Of a stretch of 64,000 nucleotides of DNA, positions 5,380-63,980 are shown one piece after another. Position 1 is the first letter of the stretch; every line of letters begins with the position of its first letter. Location of the stretch: assembly GCF_900537995.1 (NCBI RefSeq), contig NZ_LR027880.1, positions 1,868,001 through 1,932,000 on the forward strand, in the 5' to 3' direction. Under the pieces are notes generated by a model that was not told the DNA's origin, did not search any database, and saw only the letters and a list, made by a program, of their open reading frames with translations. Source of the DNA: Roseburia intestinalis L1-82 (GTDB lineage Bacteria; Bacillota; Clostridia; Lachnospirales; Lachnospiraceae). The position numbers and the translations under genes are program-made.

Positions 5380-6492
5380 ATGTCCATGCGCATATATACC
5401 ATGACACACAAAAAATTTACACCCCTGCCGGATCCGCTTTATGTACCGCTTCATGTCGGAAGGGCATGCGGGGAGAATCTGGGATATTTGGGGGATGATA
5501 CGGGAGAACAGATCTCAGCGCTGAACTGTTATTACAGTGAGCTGACCGGGTTTTACTGGATCTGGAAAAACTGCCATGATGCCGATTATGTCGGCACCTG
5601 CCATTACAGACGGTATCTGATCAACGAAAAAGAACAGATCTATACGGAGAAGGAATACCGGGAACTGTTAAGAAAATACGATCTGGTCACGACCAAAAAA
5701 GTCCTGTTAAACAATTCTTATTACGACGGATTTTTGGCAAACCACAATATACGGGCACTGGAGATGACAGGAAAGGTCATTACAGAGAAATATCCGGAAT
5801 ATGCGGATGCATTTGAACAGCTTGTAAATGGCAGACAGACTTATTTTGGAAATATCCTTGTCACTTCAAAAATATTATTTGATGAATATGCATCCTGGCT
5901 GTTTTCCATTTTCTTTGAGGTGGCAGAGCGGATCGAATTAGAAACGGGGGAAGATGCCTACCATAAAAGAGTATTTGGATTTATTTCCGAATTTCTCCTG
6001 CTTGTGTGGGTTACAGTGAAAAAGCTGCGTGTATATGAGTGCAAAGTGGGAATGCTTGGAGAAAAGGCAGAGACCGGTGAATTAAAAAGGTGTCTTGCCG
6101 AATGTTTCAGAAACCGCGATGTTGATCTGGCAAAGAAAATTTTTTTGGAGACAAGAGAAAAAAGACCGGATGTATTAATGGAGGCATCTGATATCACGGG
6201 TGAATTGCATCTGTGCATGCAGATCATTGCAACCGCGGGGGAAGAAAGAAATCATGGCGAAACCATGATTTTAGAAAGAGAAAATGATTTTGGCAGACTG
6301 ATGGAGATATTTTCGAAATTAAACCGGGTTGTGAGCCGGTACCGCGAAAACAGCGAGAGCGAAGAGGATATCCGTTTTCTGGGCGAAGGGAAAATATCAA
6401 AGACCGCAGTGTGGGTGGCAGTCATGATGGGAAAAGAATCTGAAAGTGAGAAAAAAGATCTGATGGATCGCATGTTAAAATATCTTCATTAA
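5380..6492 (+). CDS. DUF4422 domain protein (putative glycosyltransferase)
   Basis: The N-terminal ~220 residues match the DUF4422 pattern as I recall it: an initial IYTMTHKKF strand, then LNCYYSELTGFYWIWKN and YVGTCHYRRYL. DUF4422 proteins are often found in capsule or exopolysaccharide loci and are thought to be glycosyltransferase-like; activity here is inferred. The C-terminal ~150 residues are helical and charged and I do not recognise them. AAAGGAGG lies 6 nt before the ATG at 5380, which decides the start over a TTG at 5347. No other polysaccharide genes are adjacent. Confidence 0.75.
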   Translation: MSMRIYTMTHKKFTPLPDPLYVPLHVGRACGENLGYLGDDTGEQISALNCYYSELTGFYWIWKNCHDADYVGTCHYRRYLINEKEQIYTEKEYRELLRKYDLVTTKKVLLNNSYYDGFLANHNIRALEMTGKVITEKYPEYADAFEQLVNGRQTYFGNILVTSKILFDEYASWLFSIFFEVAERIELETGEDAYHKRVFGFISEFLLLVWVTVKKLRVYECKVGMLGEKAETGELKRCLAECFRNRDVDLAKKIFLETREKRPDVLMEASDITGELHLCMQIIATAGEERNHGETMILERENDFGRLMEIFSKLNRVVSRYRENSESEEDIRFLGEGKISKTAVWVAVMMGKESESEKKDLMDRMLKYLH

Positions 6493-6537
6493 ATTTTAAG
6501 AAATGCCGGAAAGCAGGAAAATACACGCATGAGGAAG

Positions 6538-6565
6538 AATGCCGTAACCTGCACCGGCATTTTTT
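6538..6565 (+). terminator. Terminator after the DUF4422 gene
   Basis: AATGCCG pairs with CGGCATT across a 10-nt loop, followed by a T run that runs into the next promoter. Confidence 0.8.
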
Positions 6566-6566
6566 G

Positions 6567-6595
6567 TTGACAATTATTTTATGGTCTGCTATGAT
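6567..6595 (+). promoter_or_regulatory. Sigma-A-type promoter upstream of tRNA-Arg
   Basis: TTGACA (6567-6572) and TATGAT (6590-6595) are separated by exactly 17 bp. A second TATAAT at 6642-6647, 11 bp before the tRNA, has no clear -35 box. Confidence 0.75.
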
Positions 6596-6658
6596 AAAAC
6601 GTGCGTAAAAAAGTAACATTTTTTTTATGCTGCAGATCCCTTATAATAGTAAGAGCAG

Positions 6659-6730
6659 GCAACCGTAGTCTAATGGATAGAACACCGGACTCCGACTCCG
6701 GCAATGCGGGTTCGATTCCCGCCGGGTGCA
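6659..6730 (+). tRNA. tRNA-Arg (anticodon CCG)
   Basis: The cloverleaf folds with acceptor GCAACCG/CGGGTGC and discriminator A. The anticodon stem is CCGGA/TCCGG with loop CTCCGAC (anticodon 6692-6694), and the T arm is GCGGG-TTCGATT-CCCGC. CCA is not encoded. Two flaws are visible: an A4-G69 mismatch in the acceptor stem and a C12-A23 mismatch in the D stem. The gene serves CGG codons. Confidence 0.9.
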
Positions 6731-6814
6731 TTTTGACAGTCAGATAGCAGGCGGCATGTTATATGTTACGCCTGTTACATATTTTATGGCGTTTTATACA
6801 ACAAAAGGAAAGGG

Positions 6815-8164
6815 ATGGAAAATACGATGGCTTCTTCAAATGTTGATGATAAATTAAAAAAAGATACAGAAAATAAAGAGACAGGCAATAAAGAAACAAA
6901 TAAGATTCTTACATTTATAAAACAGAATGTGCGTTATATTACAGCAGGGGTATTGTTCCTTGCAATGGTACTTATTTTAGTAAAGGTCGGATCTCCGAAA
7001 CAGCCACAGAATGGACAGAATGTTGCGGCAACAGAGGTAGCTTCAGAGGCATCAGATGACGCAAAACAGGAGTTTGAGGTGGATGCACATGAAGATGTAA
7101 ATACACTGATCAACCAGTACTATACCGCATATGCAGCGGGAGACACGGATACACTTTCAACAATCGCAACCCCGCTGTCTGAAAATGAAAAAAGTTATAT
7201 TTCCGTATTCAGCCAGTATGTAGATGCATACCAGAATATCAAATGCTACACAAAACAGGGGCTTGATGCATCTTCTTATCTTGTATCCGTTTATGTTGAA
7301 GTGAAATTTAAAGATGTAGATACGGTTGCGCCGGGACTGGATTTCTTCTATGTGCGCACGAATGAAGATGGCAGTGTATACATTGATAACCTTTACAGCC
7401 AGTACAATTTAAAGATTAAAGAAAATGCGTTAGATACAAGCATTCAGAACCTGATCAGTGAGTACGAGGACAGCGAAGATGTCAATACACTTCAGAAAGA
7501 AGTACAGGGTAAATATGACACGGCCATTGCTTCGGATGATAAGTTAAGTGAGATGATCTCCACGACGATTCCGAATGCGATCACTGAGTGGGCAGGCACG
7601 ATCGTCAGCCAGAATACCGAGACAGAGAGCACAGAGCAGGCTCCGGAAGAAACAACAGAATCAGAGCAGACTGAGACACCGGAGGAGAATACGGAGCAGC
7701 CGGCGGAAGATACACCGACACAGGGTGAGCCGGATACCGTTTATGCAGTAGATACTGTAAATGTCAGAGCAGCCGCAGATACAGAATCCGATAAAATTGG
7801 AACGTTAGAGAAAGGCACAGCACTTACAAGAACAGGTACAGATGGAGAGTGGAGTGTTGTAAATTATAACGGACAGACCGGATATATTAAGACAGAGTAT
7901 CTTACAACGAAAAATTCCGATTCTGATTCAGATAACGGTGGAAATGAAGAGCAGACGACCACAAGCAATTTTATAGCTGAGGGAACAGTCATTACGCTGA
8001 GTGATTCCATAAATATCCGTTCGGGAATGAGCGAGAACGACAGCAAGATCGGAACAGCTTTTTCCGGTGAGAAGGTCACGGTAGTTATGAGCTATGCAGA
8101 GGGATGGACAAAGGTAACCTGGAATGGACAGACCGGTTATATTAAGACTTCCCTGTTACAGTAA
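6815..8164 (+). CDS. Membrane-anchored protein with two bacterial SH3 domains
   Basis: After a ~35-residue charged cytoplasmic tail comes one membrane helix (YITAGVLFLAMVLILV), so the bulk is predicted to face outside. The middle (~90-265) is a folded region of unknown type. A Glu/Thr/Pro-rich linker (~270-305) and two SH3b repeats follow, each containing the pattern VNVRAAADTESDKIGTLEKG or its equivalent and ending WNGQTGYIKT. SH3b domains usually bind peptidoglycan or other wall polymers, so a wall-associated role is inferred. AAAAGG lies 6 nt before the ATG at 6815; a second ATG at 6827 is possible. A strong terminator follows. Confidence 0.8.
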   Translation: MENTMASSNVDDKLKKDTENKETGNKETNKILTFIKQNVRYITAGVLFLAMVLILVKVGSPKQPQNGQNVAATEVASEASDDAKQEFEVDAHEDVNTLINQYYTAYAAGDTDTLSTIATPLSENEKSYISVFSQYVDAYQNIKCYTKQGLDASSYLVSVYVEVKFKDVDTVAPGLDFFYVRTNEDGSVYIDNLYSQYNLKIKENALDTSIQNLISEYEDSEDVNTLQKEVQGKYDTAIASDDKLSEMISTTIPNAITEWAGTIVSQNTETESTEQAPEETTESEQTETPEENTEQPAEDTPTQGEPDTVYAVDTVNVRAAADTESDKIGTLEKGTALTRTGTDGEWSVVNYNGQTGYIKTEYLTTKNSDSDSDNGGNEEQTTTSNFIAEGTVITLSDSINIRSGMSENDSKIGTAFSGEKVTVVMSYAEGWTKVTWNGQTGYIKTSLLQ

Positions 8165-8225
8165 ATGTTCAATATACAATGGATGGCACATTTTTAGTAA
8201 CAGACTTGTAGCCACAGTAGAAATG

Positions 8226-8256
8226 GCGGAGACTTTAAAGATAAGTCTCCGCTTTT
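8226..8256 (+). terminator. Terminator of the SH3-domain gene
   Basis: GCGGAGACTT pairs perfectly with AAGTCTCCGC and is followed by TTTT. Confidence 0.9.
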
Positions 8257-8279
8257 GTGCAGAAAGAGAAAGGTGAAAA

Positions 8280-11046
<2,767 letters not shown>

Positions 11047-56914: not shown

Positions 56915-58639
56915 ATGGGAAGGAGTTTTTTTTACAGGTATGCATGTAGTTTACTTGCGTACAATTCGCATGCAGGCAGGCGGATTGCATGTGGTATTAT
57001 GACAGGAAGTCTGTTGATGGGTTTATATGGCTGCAGTGCTGCGGAAAATACGGTGGCTGTGGATACACAGCAGCAGGAAACCACACAGGAATCATTAGAA
57101 CCGGTCACATTTACATTTTACAGTGCGGATGGATTGGAGGATACCTGGACGGATCCGGTTGCGCAGATGATTACAGAAAAGACAGGGGTCACATTGAAAA
57201 TGGATTATCCTGCAGACAGTAATGACAACAGGATAGAACTTATGGTGGCAACCGGGGAATACCCGGATTTCGTGTTTGCCAAGGGTTCGGTATCAACGCT
57301 GATCCGCAACGATGCATTGATCGATATGTCGGATCTGATAGATGAGTATGGTCCGAATATTAAAAAGCTGTATGGAGATGAATATGAAAATCTGCGTTAT
57401 TCCAGTGAGGATCCGTCCATTTATCAGCTGTGCAGTGACAAAGTGCAGGAAGAAACCTTAGAAACATCCGGAACTGCCCAGCTGCAGTGGGCAGTATTGC
57501 AGGAAAACCAGTATCGTGTACCATATACGTTGGAAGAATACACGCAGATGATCCGTGATTATATGGAAAAGTATCCAATGATCAACGGAAAGCCGGCCAT
57601 TGGTATTTCGATCGTCTGTTCCGACTGGCACTGGTATACCATGTTATCGAACCCATCCGGGTATATGAATGGTTCCGCAGACAACGGGCAGTGGATCGTG
57701 GATGATGAAAAACAGGAAGTTTATTATAAACATGCAGCGGACGGGCAGAAAGAATATTATAAATGGCTGAATGAAATGTACAATGAGGGCATTTTAGATC
57801 CTGAATTTGCGACGCAGACGCATGAGGATTTTGTTTTAAAAGTTGCAGAGGGAAGAGTGCTTGGACTTTTGGATGAGGAATGGGATTATACAGGCGCTGA
57901 GATATCCCTGCGGGCAGATGGACAGGAGGAGCACACCTATGCGGGGCTTCCGGTCACAATTGATCGATCCGTGAAATGCCCTTCTTTAAAACAGCAGAAT
58001 CTTGCGGTAGGCTGGGGGATTGGTATTACAAAAAGCTGTAAAGATCCGGTTCGGGCTGTCAGGTTTTTGGACTGGCTCTGCAGTGATGAGGCACAGATCC
58101 TGTTAAACTGGGGGATTGAGGGTGTCGATTATTATTATGATGAAAACGGAAAACGGTGCATTACGGAGGAGGATCTTGAAGCGTCCCGGAAAGACACCAA
58201 TTATTCTGAGCGCACAGGTGTGGGATTTCGTGTTTATCCATATCCAAGTTATGGAAATCAGTCGGTTGATTCCACGGGCAATTCCTATAGTAAGAGCTCA
58301 AGGGAAATGGTAAAAGAAGGCTATGATGAGATGGAAAAAGAAGCACTGAAAGCATGGAATGTTGACATGCTGACCGATATTTTCCCACAGAAAGAAGAAT
58401 TTTCAAAAGATGCATATTCCCCATTATGGGCGATGACACTGCCAGATGAACTGGAAAAAATGTTAGTTGCGTTAGATAATGTATCGTGGAAGGGACTCAT
58501 TGAGTGTGTTGTCAGTCCAGCCGATGATTTTGATGCGAAATGGGATGAATTACAGCAGAATTTAAAGGATGCCGGATTAGAAAAAGCAGACCGGGAAATG
58601 ACCGCATTGCTGCGGGATGAGATCAGCCGCAGAGAGTAA
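56915..58639 (+). CDS. Extracellular solute-binding lipoprotein 2
   Basis: This is a second CUT1-type binding protein of 574 residues. Its N-terminus is unusually long and basic before the lipobox LYGC (Cys40). The mature part has [22 protein letters not shown], a central [20 protein letters not shown] and [20 protein letters not shown]. It has no permeases of its own and follows the sensor kinase, so it may serve the same importer or present ligand to the kinase. AGGGG is upstream of the ATG. Confidence 0.85.
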
Positions 58640-58664
58640 GAGCATAGGAAAGAGAAATAAGTTT

Positions 58665-60239
58665 ATGGCAAAAAAAATCATGATTCAGGGAACAATGTCA
58701 AATGCAGGGAAAAGCCTGATCGTGGCAGGTCTGTGCCGCATTTTTAAACAGGATGGCTACCGTGTGGCACCGTTTAAATCACAAAATATGGCACTGAATT
58801 CTTATATTACCGGGGAAGGACTTGAGATGGGGCGCGCACAGGTCATGCAGGCAGAAGCGGCAGGTATCAGACCGCAGGTCTGTATGAATCCGATCCTTTT
58901 AAAGCCGACCAACGATACCGGTTCTCAGGTCATTGTAAACGGTGAAGTGCTTGAAAATATGAAAGCGAGGGATTATTTTGCGTATAAAAAGAAACTGATC
59001 CCGGATATTTTAAAGGCTTATCATACATTAGAACAACAGGCGGATATCATCGTGATCGAGGGCGCCGGGAGTCCGGCAGAGATCAACCTCAAAGAAAATG
59101 ATATTGTCAATATGGGACTTGCGGAACTTTTAGATGCGCCGGTACTGCTTGTTGGTGATATCGACCGCGGTGGTGTGTTTGCACAGCTGATCGGCACGTT
59201 AGTCTTACTGGAAGAAAAAGAACGGGAGCGCATCAAAGGGCTTATCATCAATAAGTTTCGCGGCGATGTATCAATCTTAGACCCGGGCATAAAGATGTTA
59301 GAAGAAAAAGGTGGGATTCCGGTTACCGGGGTCGTGCCTTATATGCATTTAGTCCTTGAGGATGAGGACAGCCTGTCAGACCGGTTTGCAGAACATGAGG
59401 AGAAAGCGGTGGATATTGCGGTCATACGTTTCCCACGCATTTCCAATTTTACGGATTTTATGGTATTTGAATCGATCGAGGGCGTTTCTGTCCGCTATGT
59501 GGACACGCTGGAAAAACTGCATCACCCGGATATGATCATCCTGCCCGGCAGTAAAAATACGATGGGCGACTTAAAATGGATGCGCCAGAACGGGCTGGAG
59601 GCTGCCATCAAAAAGCATGCGCAAAATCGGGATGCCGTGATCTTTGGCATCTGCGGCGGATATCAGATGTTGGGAGAGTGCATCACAGATCCTTATGGTG
59701 TCGAGGAGGGCGGTATGCTGCGCGGTATGGAACTTTTGCCGATGGAGACAGAGATGGAACAGGAAAAGACGAGAACGCAGGTGGACGGGACATTTGAAGA
59801 ACTGACCGGAGTGCTGTCTGTGCTGTCGGGTGTGAAGCTGACGGGGTATGAGATTCATATGGGAGCGAGCCGCAGGACGGATCATGCCGAGATTGATATG
59901 GATACGGTTATGATGGATTTAGGTCGGAGTGAGAAGCCCGAAATGCTTCAGGAAAAAAGATATGAATATCTGTGCCATATCACAGATCAGGCTGAAAATC
60001 AAAAAGCAGATGGAATCTGTGCAGGTAATGTTTATGGTACTTATGTTCATGGAGTATTTGATGCAGATGGCATTGCTGCAAAGATCGTTGAGGCACTTGC
60101 CACAAAGAAAGGAATTTCCATGGAGGCAGTGACTCAGCAGAATTATCAGGAATTTAAAGAGACACAGTATGATAAATTGGCGAAGACGCTGCGGGAGTAT
60201 CTGGATATGGATGCGGTGTATAGGATGATGGGGATGTAA
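58665..60239 (+). CDS. cbiP: Cobyric acid synthase
   Basis: CbiP (CobQ) amidates four side chains of adenosylcobyrinate diamide. A P-loop-like start ([21 protein letters not shown]) is followed by the dethiobiotin-synthetase-like domain with [12 protein letters not shown] and [18 protein letters not shown]. The C-terminal glutaminase domain has the catalytic Cys in [13 protein letters not shown]. The ATG at 58665 follows AGGAAAGAG and gives 524 residues. No cobalamin riboswitch is seen upstream. Confidence 0.93.
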
Positions 60240-60313
60240 GGCTGCTTGTTACCGCACAACAGGCGAGAACAGCAGCGACTGGACGGACCGATTTGACGGA
60301 GTAAATTTGTTTA

Positions 60314-60342
60314 TTGCTGAACACAGGAAACTGCCCTATAAT
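60314..60342 (+). promoter_or_regulatory. Promoter driving the chimeric cobT
   Basis: TTGCTG (60314-60319) and TATAAT (60337-60342) are 17 bp apart, 45 bp before the cobT start. It probably came with the captured 5' segment. The 60240-60313 stretch holds nothing else I can identify. Confidence 0.6.
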
Positions 60343-60386
60343 AAATGATAACGGAAATAAAAAAGAAGTACGCAGGAGGCAGCGGG

Positions 60387-61553
60387 ATGGGAAGATACCT
60401 GAATCAGGGAAATGAAAGCTTTGAAAAGAGTGTAAATTCTGAAATTTATATCGATAAAACAGGTTTGATTAAGTATACCAACCGTGTTCTGAATACGCTA
60501 CAGGGGTATGTCTGTATCAGAAGACCGGATGAGAAAATCCGAAAAAAGGTACAGGAAAACTGGGATTCCTTAGCGAAACCATTAGATGGGCTGGGAATCT
60601 TTGAAAAGATATTTACACAGATCGGTGCAGTGACAGGGGACGAGAGGGTGCCGTTACAAAAGAAGGCAGTGATCGTGATGTGTGCGGATAACGGGATCGT
60701 TGAGGAGGGCATCAGCCAGTCCGGGCAGGAAGTCACATATCAGGTTGCAGAATCCATGGGAAAACGAAAAAGCTCTGTCTGCCTTATGGCTGCACAGGCG
60801 AATGCTAAAGTCATTCCAATCGACGTCGGGATCGCAGCGGAAGAAACACCGGAAGGCGTCTGGAATAAAAAGGTGAGCAGGGGTACAAAAAACTTTTTAA
60901 AACAGCCGGCGATGACGGAGGAGGAAGCATTGGCTGCGATCGAAGCTGGCATCGACAGTGTAAAAAAGTGCAAAGAGGATGGTGTGACACTGCTTGCAAC
61001 CGGGGAGATGGGAATTGGAAACACGACGACAAGCAGCGCAGTGGCGGCGGCATTGTTAAACTGTGAGACGGCAGCGATTACCGGAAAAGGTGCAGGACTC
61101 AGTGACGCGGGATTATTACATAAGATTGCGGTGATCGATGAGGCGCGGAAAAAATATCAGTTTGACTCCAAAGATGTATTTCGTATTCTGTGTTCGGTCG
61201 GCGGACTGGATATTGCAGGACTGTGCGGTGTCTGCATCGGGGGCGCAGTTTACGGTGTCCCGGTTGTGCTGGACGGTGTGATCAGTGCAGTTGCAGCACT
61301 TGTGGCAGAACGTCTTGTTCCGGGCGTAAAGGATTTCCTGATCGCTTCCCACAAAAGCAGGGAACCGGCAGCGGCACTGATCTTACAGGAACTTGGTGTA
61401 CATCCGGTCATTGATGGCAGTCTGGCGCTCGGTGAGGGAACCGGTGCCGTTCTGATGTTTGGACTGCTCGATACGGTACATGCAGTCTATGGTAACCGGA
61501 CAACATTTTCAGATATTAGGGTGGAAGCATACAAGAGGTTTACAGACGTATGA
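60387..61553 (+). CDS. cobT: CobT phosphoribosyltransferase with a foreign N-terminus
   Basis: CobT transfers phosphoribose from nicotinate mononucleotide to dimethylbenzimidazole or a similar lower base of cobalamin. The CobT fold starts near residue 48 (KVQENWDSLAKPLDGLG) and runs to the catalytic Glu in LALGEGTGAVLMF. Residues 1-~47 (MGRYLNQGNESFEKSVNSEI and onward to YVCIRRP) instead match, from memory, the N-terminus of PF09820-type AAA-ATPase-like proteins, whose next motif would be RPRRFGKS. AGGAGG 7 nt before the ATG at 60387 sets the start. The stop overlaps cobU (ATGA). Confidence 0.9.
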   Translation: MGRYLNQGNESFEKSVNSEIYIDKTGLIKYTNRVLNTLQGYVCIRRPDEKIRKKVQENWDSLAKPLDGLGIFEKIFTQIGAVTGDERVPLQKKAVIVMCADNGIVEEGISQSGQEVTYQVAESMGKRKSSVCLMAAQANAKVIPIDVGIAAEETPEGVWNKKVSRGTKNFLKQPAMTEEEALAAIEAGIDSVKKCKEDGVTLLATGEMGIGNTTTSSAVAAALLNCETAAITGKGAGLSDAGLLHKIAVIDEARKKYQFDSKDVFRILCSVGGLDIAGLCGVCIGGAVYGVPVVLDGVISAVAALVAERLVPGVKDFLIASHKSREPAAALILQELGVHPVIDGSLALGEGTGAVLMFGLLDTVHAVYGNRTTFSDIRVEAYKRFTDV

Positions 61554-62191
61554 TGGTTGTAGTGACAGGCGCAAGCGGCAGTGGTAAGTCGGAATATGCA
61601 GAAGGTGTGGCGGTAAAGCTGGCGGGAAAAGGAGACTTATATTATCTTGCGACGATGCGTGTCTATGGAGAAGAGGGAGTACGCCGTGTGGAACGGCACA
61701 GAAAACTTCGCGCCGGGAAAGGATTTCAAACGGCTGAGTGTCCTGTCAAGGTGGATGAAGCGTTTGCACAGGTATGCATGTCAGAGTCTTTGGAACAGAC
61801 ATGTGACACATCACATGGAAGAGTATGTACGGCAGAATTTTTAGAACAGGGATGTGCCAGGCTGCATGGAAAAATACGGATGCCCGTGGCTTTATTGGAG
61901 TGCATGTCAAACCTTGTGGCGAATGAGATGTTCCCGGAGACTGTCGGTGATGAGATAAATGCAAACTGTGTAGAAAATATCGTCCGCCAGATCAGGCACT
62001 TGAAAGACCAGACCGGACATCTGGTGATCGTGACAAACCAGATCTTTGAGGACGGAATTATCTATGAACCGGAAACGATGGAATACATTAGAAATCTGGG
62101 TCAGATCAACCAACAGTTAGCAGAAATGGCGGATTCGGTGATTGAGGTTGTGGCAGGAATCCCGATTTTTATAAAGGGGGAGAAATTATGA
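61550..62191 (+). CDS. cobU: Adenosylcobinamide kinase/guanylyltransferase CobU
   Basis: CobU phosphorylates adenosylcobinamide and then adds GMP. The P-loop GASGSGKS (7-14), YYLATMRVYGEEGVRRVERHR and LECMSNLVANEMFPE are present. Residues 75-108 are two diverged copies of a 17-residue unit (VC..E.LEQ.C...HG[RK]) that interrupt the usual CobU sequence. Start and stop overlap the flanking cobT and cobS genes by 4 bp, so the group is a tight operon. Confidence 0.9.
   Translation: MMVVVTGASGSGKSEYAEGVAVKLAGKGDLYYLATMRVYGEEGVRRVERHRKLRAGKGFQTAECPVKVDEAFAQVCMSESLEQTCDTSHGRVCTAEFLEQGCARLHGKIRMPVALLECMSNLVANEMFPETVGDEINANCVENIVRQIRHLKDQTGHLVIVTNQIFEDGIIYEPETMEYIRNLGQINQQLAEMADSVIEVVAGIPIFIKGEKL
61772..61873 (+). 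repeat. Diverged 51-bp tandem repeat inside cobU
   Basis: Units 61772-61822 and 61823-61873 encode the two 17-residue copies. Identity is higher in protein pattern than in DNA, so the duplication is not recent. Confidence 0.7.
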
Positions 62192-62955
62192 TGACAACAT
62201 TAAGAGCACTGGTCATTGCATTTTCCATGTATTCCCAGATACCGATGCCGCAGTTTACCTGGCAGGATAAAGAAATGAAGTATGCATTCTGCTTTTTCCC
62301 GTGGGTTGGAGCGGCCATCGGCGGTATCACGATGTTCTGGTGGTGGTTCTGCGGAAAATTTTCGGTTGGAAATGTGGCATTTGCCATGATTGGCACAGCC
62401 ATTCCACTTGCAGTTACCGGAGGATTTCATGTGGATGGATTTATGGATACGATGGATGCGTTCCATTCTTACCAGCCGAGAGAGAAAAAACTTGAGATAT
62501 TGAAGGACTCGCATATAGGTGCTTTTTCTGTAATCTGTCTGGTGCTGTATGAACTGATTTATATCGGAGCATATTCAGAGATAGATGCAGTACGGCAGGC
62601 GGGGATCGTGGCAGCCGGATTTTTCTTATCACGCTGTCTTTCCGGTATTGCTGCGATGACTTTTCCGGGTGCAAAGAAAGAAGGACTTTTGTATATGTTC
62701 ACGAGCAAAGCGCATGAGCGGGCCGTAAAGACCGCACTGTTTTTGCAGACAGCATCGGTGGCGGTGCTGATGCTGTATTTAGACGGAGTGACGGGAGTGG
62801 CAGTGTTAGTGGGCGCAGGTCTTACTTTTCTGTATTATTATAAGAAATGTAAAAAGGAACTTGGAGGTATTACCGGGGATACCGAAGGATATTTTGTGAC
62901 AGTGTGTGAGTGTGTGATCGTTGTGGCAGCTGCGGTATGTGGAATTATACGATGA
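62188..62955 (+). CDS. cobS: Adenosylcobinamide-GDP ribazoletransferase CobS
   Basis: CobS joins adenosylcobinamide-GDP to alpha-ribazole(-phosphate) at the membrane. The polytopic protein of 255 residues shows the family blocks FSMYSQIPMPQFTW, the metal-binding GGFHVDGFMDTMDAFHSY and LKDSHIGAFSVICLVLYEL. It is coupled to cobU by a 4-bp overlap. Confidence 0.93.
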   Translation: MMTTLRALVIAFSMYSQIPMPQFTWQDKEMKYAFCFFPWVGAAIGGITMFWWWFCGKFSVGNVAFAMIGTAIPLAVTGGFHVDGFMDTMDAFHSYQPREKKLEILKDSHIGAFSVICLVLYELIYIGAYSEIDAVRQAGIVAAGFFLSRCLSGIAAMTFPGAKKEGLLYMFTSKAHERAVKTALFLQTASVAVLMLYLDGVTGVAVLVGAGLTFLYYYKKCKKELGGITGDTEGYFVTVCECVIVVAAAVCGIIR

Positions 62956-62985
62956 TAAAGGAATAACAAAAAAAGAGGGTGTAAA

Positions 62986-63366
62986 ATGAGACTGGTTTTA
63001 GGTGGAGTGGCACAGGGAAAACGCAATTATGTAAAAACAGCGTATCATATATCAGAGAACGACATTTTTTCGGGCGAAAACGCAGAACTTGAGCAGTTAT
63101 GCGGTGCAAAAGCAGTAGATAAGTTCCATCTGTGGGTAAGAAGAAAAGTGAAAGAGCAGGCAGATGTGCCAAAACTCACAGAAACATTTATAAAGAAAAA
63201 CCCGGATTGTATCGTGATCTGCAATGAAGTCGGATGCGGTGTGGTGCCGATGTTAAAAGAAGAAAGAGAGTACCGGGAGCAGGTCGGAAGGATGCAGGTC
63301 ATTCTGGCAAAATCTTCGGAGAGTGTGGAGCGTGTGATATGCGGGATAGCACAGAAAATAAAATAA
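62986..63366 (+). CDS. Short CobU-like protein
   Basis: This 126-residue protein resembles the N- and C-terminal parts of CobU. It has a P-loop variant GGVAQGKR near the start and CNEVGCGVVPMLKEEREYREQVGRM, which matches the CobU C-terminal block. The middle of CobU is missing. It may be a regulatory or partly active paralogue; a full-length cobU lies 0.8 kb upstream. It overlaps the next gene by 28 bp. Confidence 0.75.
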   Translation: MRLVLGGVAQGKRNYVKTAYHISENDIFSGENAELEQLCGAKAVDKFHLWVRRKVKEQADVPKLTETFIKKNPDCIVICNEVGCGVVPMLKEEREYREQVGRMQVILAKSSESVERVICGIAQKIK

Positions 63367-63980
63367 CAATGGCATTTATCCGGCATGGAGAGACAGCGTC
63401 GAACCGCAGAAAAAGTTATCTTGGCTGGACAGATGAACCGCTTTCTGAGGACGGATGTGAAATGCTGTTGCGCAACAGGAAAAATTATCCTGCAGCAGAC
63501 CTTATTTTTACGAGTCCCATGCTAAGGTGCAGACAGACAAAAGAGATTTTATATAAAGATCAGCCTTATCAGATCATAGAAAAATGGAAAGAAATGAACT
63601 TTGGCAGTTTTGAGGGAAAGACTTACTTTGATTTAAATGGAAATGAAGATTATCAGAGATGGATCAACAGTGGCGGCACACTGCCGTTTCCGGACGGAGA
63701 GAGCCGGGCAGAATTTATCACAAGGTGTAAAGCGGGACTGTTGGATTGCCTGATGGAATTAGAAAAACAGGTAACTGTACCGGAAAAGGTTGTCTGCATT
63801 GTACATGGCGGCATGATTATGGCACTTTTTGACAGTTATGGACAGGGTTCCTATTTTGACTATCAGTGCAGGTGCGGACAGGGATACGAATGTACGCTGT
63901 CCTATGCAGTAGACGCAAATGGGATGGTGAAAGAGACATCAATTTCCATGCGTGATGAAAAATTAATTTTTGGAGAGTAA
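63339..63980 (+). CDS. cobC: Histidine phosphatase, probable alpha-ribazole phosphatase
   Basis: This phosphoglycerate-mutase-like phosphatase has the catalytic FIRHGETASN and the second His in VCIVHGGMIM. In a cobalamin operon such enzymes remove phosphate from alpha-ribazole-5'-phosphate or cobalamin-phosphate, so CobC is inferred from context. The ATG at 63339 with GTGGAG upstream is preferred; an ATG at 63369 lacks an SD. Length is ~213 residues. Confidence 0.82.
   Translation: MRDSTENKITMAFIRHGETASNRRKSYLGWTDEPLSEDGCEMLLRNRKNYPAADLIFTSPMLRCRQTKEILYKDQPYQIIEKWKEMNFGSFEGKTYFDLNGNEDYQRWINSGGTLPFPDGESRAEFITRCKAGLLDCLMELEKQVTVPEKVVCIVHGGMIMALFDSYGQGSYFDYQCRCGQGYECTLSYAVDANGMVKETSISMRDEKLIFGE

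Follow-up and report, generated by a model that had tools for sequence, protein, structure and literature searches.

CobT (nicotinate-nucleotide:dimethylbenzimidazole phosphoribosyltransferase) is described by the models TIGR03160 and PF02277 and by the Salmonella structure 1D0S. The DUF1703 proteins form an unrelated family, in which, according to the accessible parts of two reports (PMC1913061, PMC6387759), an AAA-ATPase-like domain (PF09820) is joined to a PD-(D/E)XK nuclease domain (PF08011), and the accessible part of the latter reports horizontal spread and frequent recombination of such genes in Cardinium. CobT carrying an added N-terminal part is also on record, as the bluB/cobT fusions of Actinobacteria appear in the available portion of PMC8123684, where Roseburia intestinalis is itself listed among the genomes that combine a full cobalamin pathway with salvage. 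Lastly, gene activation by illegitimate recombination or promoter capture is treated in PMC11111574, where, in the part accessible, a tandem duplication activates transferred genes. Here, we describe the cobT gene in a window of 64,000 nucleotides (nt) from R. intestinalis L1-82 (contig NZ_LR027880.1, positions 1,868,001 to 1,932,000; all window features given below lie on its forward strand). Judged from protein comparisons, this gene is a natural chimera, its first 44-47 codons corresponding to the start of an unrelated ATPase-nuclease gene.

The open frame of cobT spans 60345-61553 in the list of open reading frames (ORFs), and from its likely start (ATG 60387) the product has 388 residues, as does the cluster representative P0045. 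The first-pass annotation had proposed that cobT exchanged its start for that of a PF09820-type gene, and this was borne out when the two parts of the protein were searched separately. With residues 1-62 as the query and the targets limited to proteins between about 221 and 703 residues long, 143 of the 145 candidates matched at E <= 0.01, and the E-values for PF09820/PF08011 proteins were as low as 4.9e-22. Among the best 120 of these 143 matches, 116 carry PF09820, and the other four are CobTs with the same tail (P0001, P0002, P0023, and P0045). The closest donor-type protein, P0032 (523 residues, PF09820 plus PF08011; a cluster of 39 member sequences on 3 contigs, ENA source), is identical to the tail at 46 of 47 residues (E 1.2e-20), the sole difference being Ser45 in P0032 and Arg45 in the fusion. 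In the reverse direction, P0032 matched the window significantly at residues 1-47 alone (97.9%, E 4.7e-25), with the two other rows at E 3.3 and 5.1. That the tail is an ordinary CobT extension resembling an ATPase by chance could draw on the variable CobT N-termini, in which, across the clusters read, the core is preceded by 8-60 residues; this explanation is refuted by the near-identity to P0032 and by native CobT N-termini that are unrelated to the tail.

The captured coding segment (60387..60518, residues 1-44, MGRYLN...YVCI) corresponds to a DUF1703-type start and ends just before the Walker A motif. While the fusion thus shares its start up to YVCI, and probably a ribosome site, with the DUF1703 proteins as partly described in PMC1913061 and PMC6387759, it lacks Walker A (RPRRFGKS), Walker B and the rest of the ATPase, and the nuclease domain, and is not a member of that family. 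In fact, the 47-residue tail alone gave no Pfam match even at E 10. Seen from the other side, the annotated N-terminus of R. intestinalis CobT is, by its sequence, not CobT.

The CobT core (60519..61553) is complete by profile and by model. Residues 48-388 match PF02277 (E 5.5e-116, 392.5 bits against a cut-off of 22.6), and the whole fused protein matches the NCBIfam equivalog TIGR03160 at 342.7 bits (cut-off 319.3), covering positions 2-334 of the 334 in the model. In the AlphaFold model, the CobT fold is complete and the conserved active-site glutamates are kept, while residues 1-39 are of low confidence and probably hang free as a disordered segment. Compared with known CobT, then, the core sequence, predicted fold, conserved glutamates, and cob gene order are the same, whereas the first ~14 residues are replaced by 44-47 foreign ones, giving a length of 388 instead of about 355 residues. 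AlphaFold models of both the fusion and the donor type place the join just after a β-strand, and because it therefore falls at equivalent places in the two proteins, the product is probably still a working and ordinary CobT enzyme.

To place the fusion among its relatives, we compared the best 120 of 5824 CobT matches, of which 118 had not already been recognised as fused. The tail was found in none of these 118 clusters; 91 of them have 14 or 25 residues ahead of the core, and one (P0127) has no N-terminus at all. The nearest tail-less CobTs (P0121-P0125) have 355 residues, share 90-91% identity with the fusion core, and begin MTNQQLKQIKIRKPDENIRKKVQENWDSLAKPL in P0122-P0125 and MTKQQLEQIKIMTPDEKIQKK in P0121; since four of the five start with MTNQQLKQIKIRKPDEN, about 14 native residues appear to have been replaced. 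CobT was found in 241 of 397 genomes of the family (E <= 1e-40), and among the matches listed from these, only the window's own CobT aligns from residue 1, the next lowest starts being two at residue 22 that both cross stop codons. Likewise, in 60 relatives the CobT alignments of the others begin at residue 44 or later. Neither a shared N-terminus in relatives nor a lack of ATPase matches, either of which would have spoken against a recent capture, was thus encountered. Because the CobTs of relatives are without the tail, it is limited, in the data seen, to the CobT lineage of the window's species, and was gained after the split from relatives at ~90% identity. The fusion is probably young, to judge from the 46 residues that still match the donor-type protein.

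Confidence that the fusion is a real gene comes from P0045, which shares the junction but carries substitutions of its own to either side of it, namely 3 in 47 tail residues and 2 in 341 core residues (Fisher p 0.014). This single comparison also hints that the tail is under relaxed constraint relative to the core. P0001 and P0002 agree with the fusion too, though they carry no source label and are possibly from the same strain, and the R. intestinalis genome is assembled as one contig of 4,493,348 bases. An assembly chimera is therefore highly improbable, even if chimeric CobTs do seem present in the protein collection: P0023, P0126, and P0133 show a seeming switch of species in or just after the conserved stretch around MCADNG, and are probably metagenome assembly chimeras.

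Around the junction, the residues are Y-V-C-I-R-R-P-D-E in the fusion, Y-V-C-I-S-R-P-R-R-F in P0032, and K-I-R-K-P-D-E in native P0122. The first-pass annotation had placed recombination at shared Arg-Arg-Pro codons, which was near, though not exact; as the donors read I-S-R-P, the break is best fitted at I44|R45. Here, codon 45 is AGC or AGT (Ser) in 112 of 117 AAA gene starts and AGA in the fusion, as expected of a native Arg. From these Ser codons and the I-R-K-P of P0122, the crossover most simply lies inside a 5-base ATCAG microhomology (60516-60520; donor ATCAGY, native ATCAGA). The second Arg could come from the donor or reflect a K/R difference in the native protein.

Upstream, cobT is separated from cobQ by a gap of 147 nt (60240..60386), which from its sequence and the sister loci is possibly in part a donor 5' region. 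An AGGAGG Shine-Dalgarno motif (60374..60379) stands 7 nt before ATG 60387, and a scan of the first 70 codons for in-frame ATG, GTG, or TTG gave only ATG 60345, ATG 60387, and TTG 60465, so that the core could hardly be made without at least part of the tail; with the strong ribosome site only at ATG 60387, the tail is almost surely translated. A Shine-Dalgarno-like motif (GGAG or better) precedes 81 of 118 AAA genes, while the stricter AGGAG/GGAGG occurs in 1 of 12 cobQ-cobT gaps of sister loci, and the captured coding start probably brought the ribosome site of the donor with it. The promoter is a different matter. Of the "good promoter and AGGAGG" claimed for this region, the ribosome site stands, but the candidate TTGCTG-17-TATAAT (60314..60342) couples a -35 element matching at 3 of 6 positions (60314-60319) with a perfect -10 (60337-60342), and a consensus scan found no promoter in the gap (6 in the region, with 5.0 expected by chance). 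Even so, capture of a donor promoter is suggested as plausible by the TATAAT, which lies 44 nt before ATG 60387, a distance common among AAA genes. It occurs within 100 nt of the start in 31 of 118 such genes against 8.2 expected from mononucleotide shuffles, at 29-46 nt in 20 of those 31, and in 1 of the 12 sister gaps. In the window, 4 of the 46 ORFs of >= 200 residues have it within the preceding 100 nt, one of these apparently being cobT counted from its first ATG.

As to the donor, the first-pass annotation's expectation of a copy in the same genome did not hold. Of the four PF09820 stretches in the genome, two are genes (3.95-3.96 Mb) and two are pieces (1.42 Mb); none is a close donor copy, with the best match to the tail being 55% identical. 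One PF09820 gene at C1:1420670-1421342 matches in two separate frames and is possibly a decaying copy. Among donor-type genes with available DNA, the nearest reach 74% protein identity in the tail (97-98 of 141 bases) or 77% across 134 bases, and among the matches listed at most 106 of 141 bases are identical to the tail. A donor of the P0032 type may have been in another strain or another species, or a copy since lost.

Together, these data are very probably best explained by an event in the lineage of the window's species, in which a DUF1703-type gene start was joined through microhomology onto a native cobT. Illegitimate recombination at ATCAG would have placed the 5' end of a DUF1703-type AAA-ATPase/nuclease gene ahead of about codon 12-15 of cobT. 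The captured piece would comprise at least 44 codons, probably the donor's Shine-Dalgarno site, and maybe its promoter, at the expense of cobT's own start codon and initial residues (~14 codons). The donor strand YVCI, which leads into the Walker A loop, would replace the CobT LKI/IKI segment leading into P-D and helix 1, and the lasting outcome would be a new translation start for cobT, perhaps with a new promoter, the tail itself being most likely a tolerated leader. As in the accessible part of PMC11111574, recombination provides a new start region, but here it is the coding start that is exchanged in frame.

Several points weigh against this explanation. Both breakpoints are drawn from proteins and AAA-gene codons, not from donor or native cobT DNA, and the native strand lost from CobT is deduced from the fused model and a sequence pattern. 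The gap has no detectable homology to the upstream DNA of AAA genes (best blastn E 0.55, with the closest donor-type DNA at only 74%/77%); it matched only itself in its own genome and, outside the coding part, gave short weak matches only in the genus. Spread within the species is judged from the representative alone of the 1095-member cluster P0045. Finally, the GC content of the tail (36.9%) is below that of every 141-nt window of the CobT core (minimum 44.0%), though this is weak evidence, as 141-nt windows of cobQ reach the same 36.9%.

Some of the same data bear on a two-step course, in which the cobQ-cobT gap first received a whole DUF1703 gene, and a deletion running from within that gene into cobT then left only 44 codons of it, the 5' region, and an enlarged gap. 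It gains from the reported mobility of the family, from the 288 nt between the cobQ stop and codon D48 (60-191 nt from the cobQ match to the CobT match in 12 sisters), and from the ribosome site and TATAAT position that resemble AAA genes. Set against these are the lack of any further significant DUF1703 remnant in the window, the undetectable upstream homology, and the fact that one-step end-joining gives the same product. We rate this course at somewhat under an even chance.

The neighbourhood itself is a cob cluster. The upstream cobQ/cbiP gene for cobyric acid synthase (58665..60239; 59-69% identical to its counterparts in 12 sister loci) has a listed ORF start at 58617, for which we chose 58665 (MAKKIMIQ) as the likely start. 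Downstream, at 61550..63980, the ORF list and the sister loci show four syntenic genes that we take, from synteny, to be cobU, cobS, cobU2, and cobC, and the order cobQ-cobT-cobU-cobS-cobU2-cobC is common to the window and the 12 sister loci of the genus. The presumed cobU2 is a short gene of 126 residues (62986-63366) between cobS and cobC, whose position is kept in the 12 sister loci (partly in one). At the other end (56915-58665), cobQ lies ~25 nt after the preceding gene with no space for a leader; that gene, presumably for a sugar-binding lipoprotein, was not matched in the sister loci retrieved. In the sister loci, cobT starts where cobQ ends or a short distance beyond, except for a longer gap in G060 and a single frame shared by the two in G061. 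This 899-residue cobQ-cobT frame (L209, about 6202-8802, minus strand) has no stop between the two and is a probable CobQ-CobT fusion of a sister species. Like the bluB/cobT fusions, as far as the available portion of PMC8123684 describes them, it gives CobT an added N-terminal part, but these join whole pathway genes, whereas here an unrelated, partial, and probably non-functional leader is involved.

Regulation brings in a further possibility, that the capture was selected because it freed cobT from upstream control, with its own promoter and an altered dose of lower-ligand activation. The perfect -10 in the gap would fit, and so would the cobalamin riboswitches, which immediately precede cobQ in 3 of the 12 sister loci (L205 8171-8369, minus strand; L206 4647-4841, plus strand; L214 8596-8794, minus strand), with none in the window and the genome's only one elsewhere (C1:4050000-4050184). 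However, the other 9 sister loci are also without a riboswitch, and because the scan gave neither promoter nor terminator between cobQ and cobT, read-through from cobQ is likely. We regard a selected capture as unlikely. Less probable still is the idea that the starts of DUF1703 genes, a family prone to mobility, are portable modules of promoter, ribosome site, and short leader that can be fused in frame to housekeeping genes, and that such a module altered cobT expression here and gave CobT a tail with a new contact, e.g., CobS/CobU or another DUF1703 protein.

We found no published report of an AAA-start/cobT fusion in the literature searched, with most subscription journals outside it. On present comparisons, cobT of R. 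intestinalis is a genuine case of a gene whose start was exchanged in frame in one lineage, and a clean one in that a bacterial housekeeping enzyme has received the start of an unrelated gene. Native relatives at 90% identity allow comparison with the fusion, and the strand at the join in both proteins would exemplify how such an in-frame 5' exchange survives. A caution follows for annotation, as the annotated N-terminus of R. intestinalis CobT belongs to another family. More broadly, the case bears on whether 5' exchange may rewire how a gut bacterium expresses a vitamin pathway.
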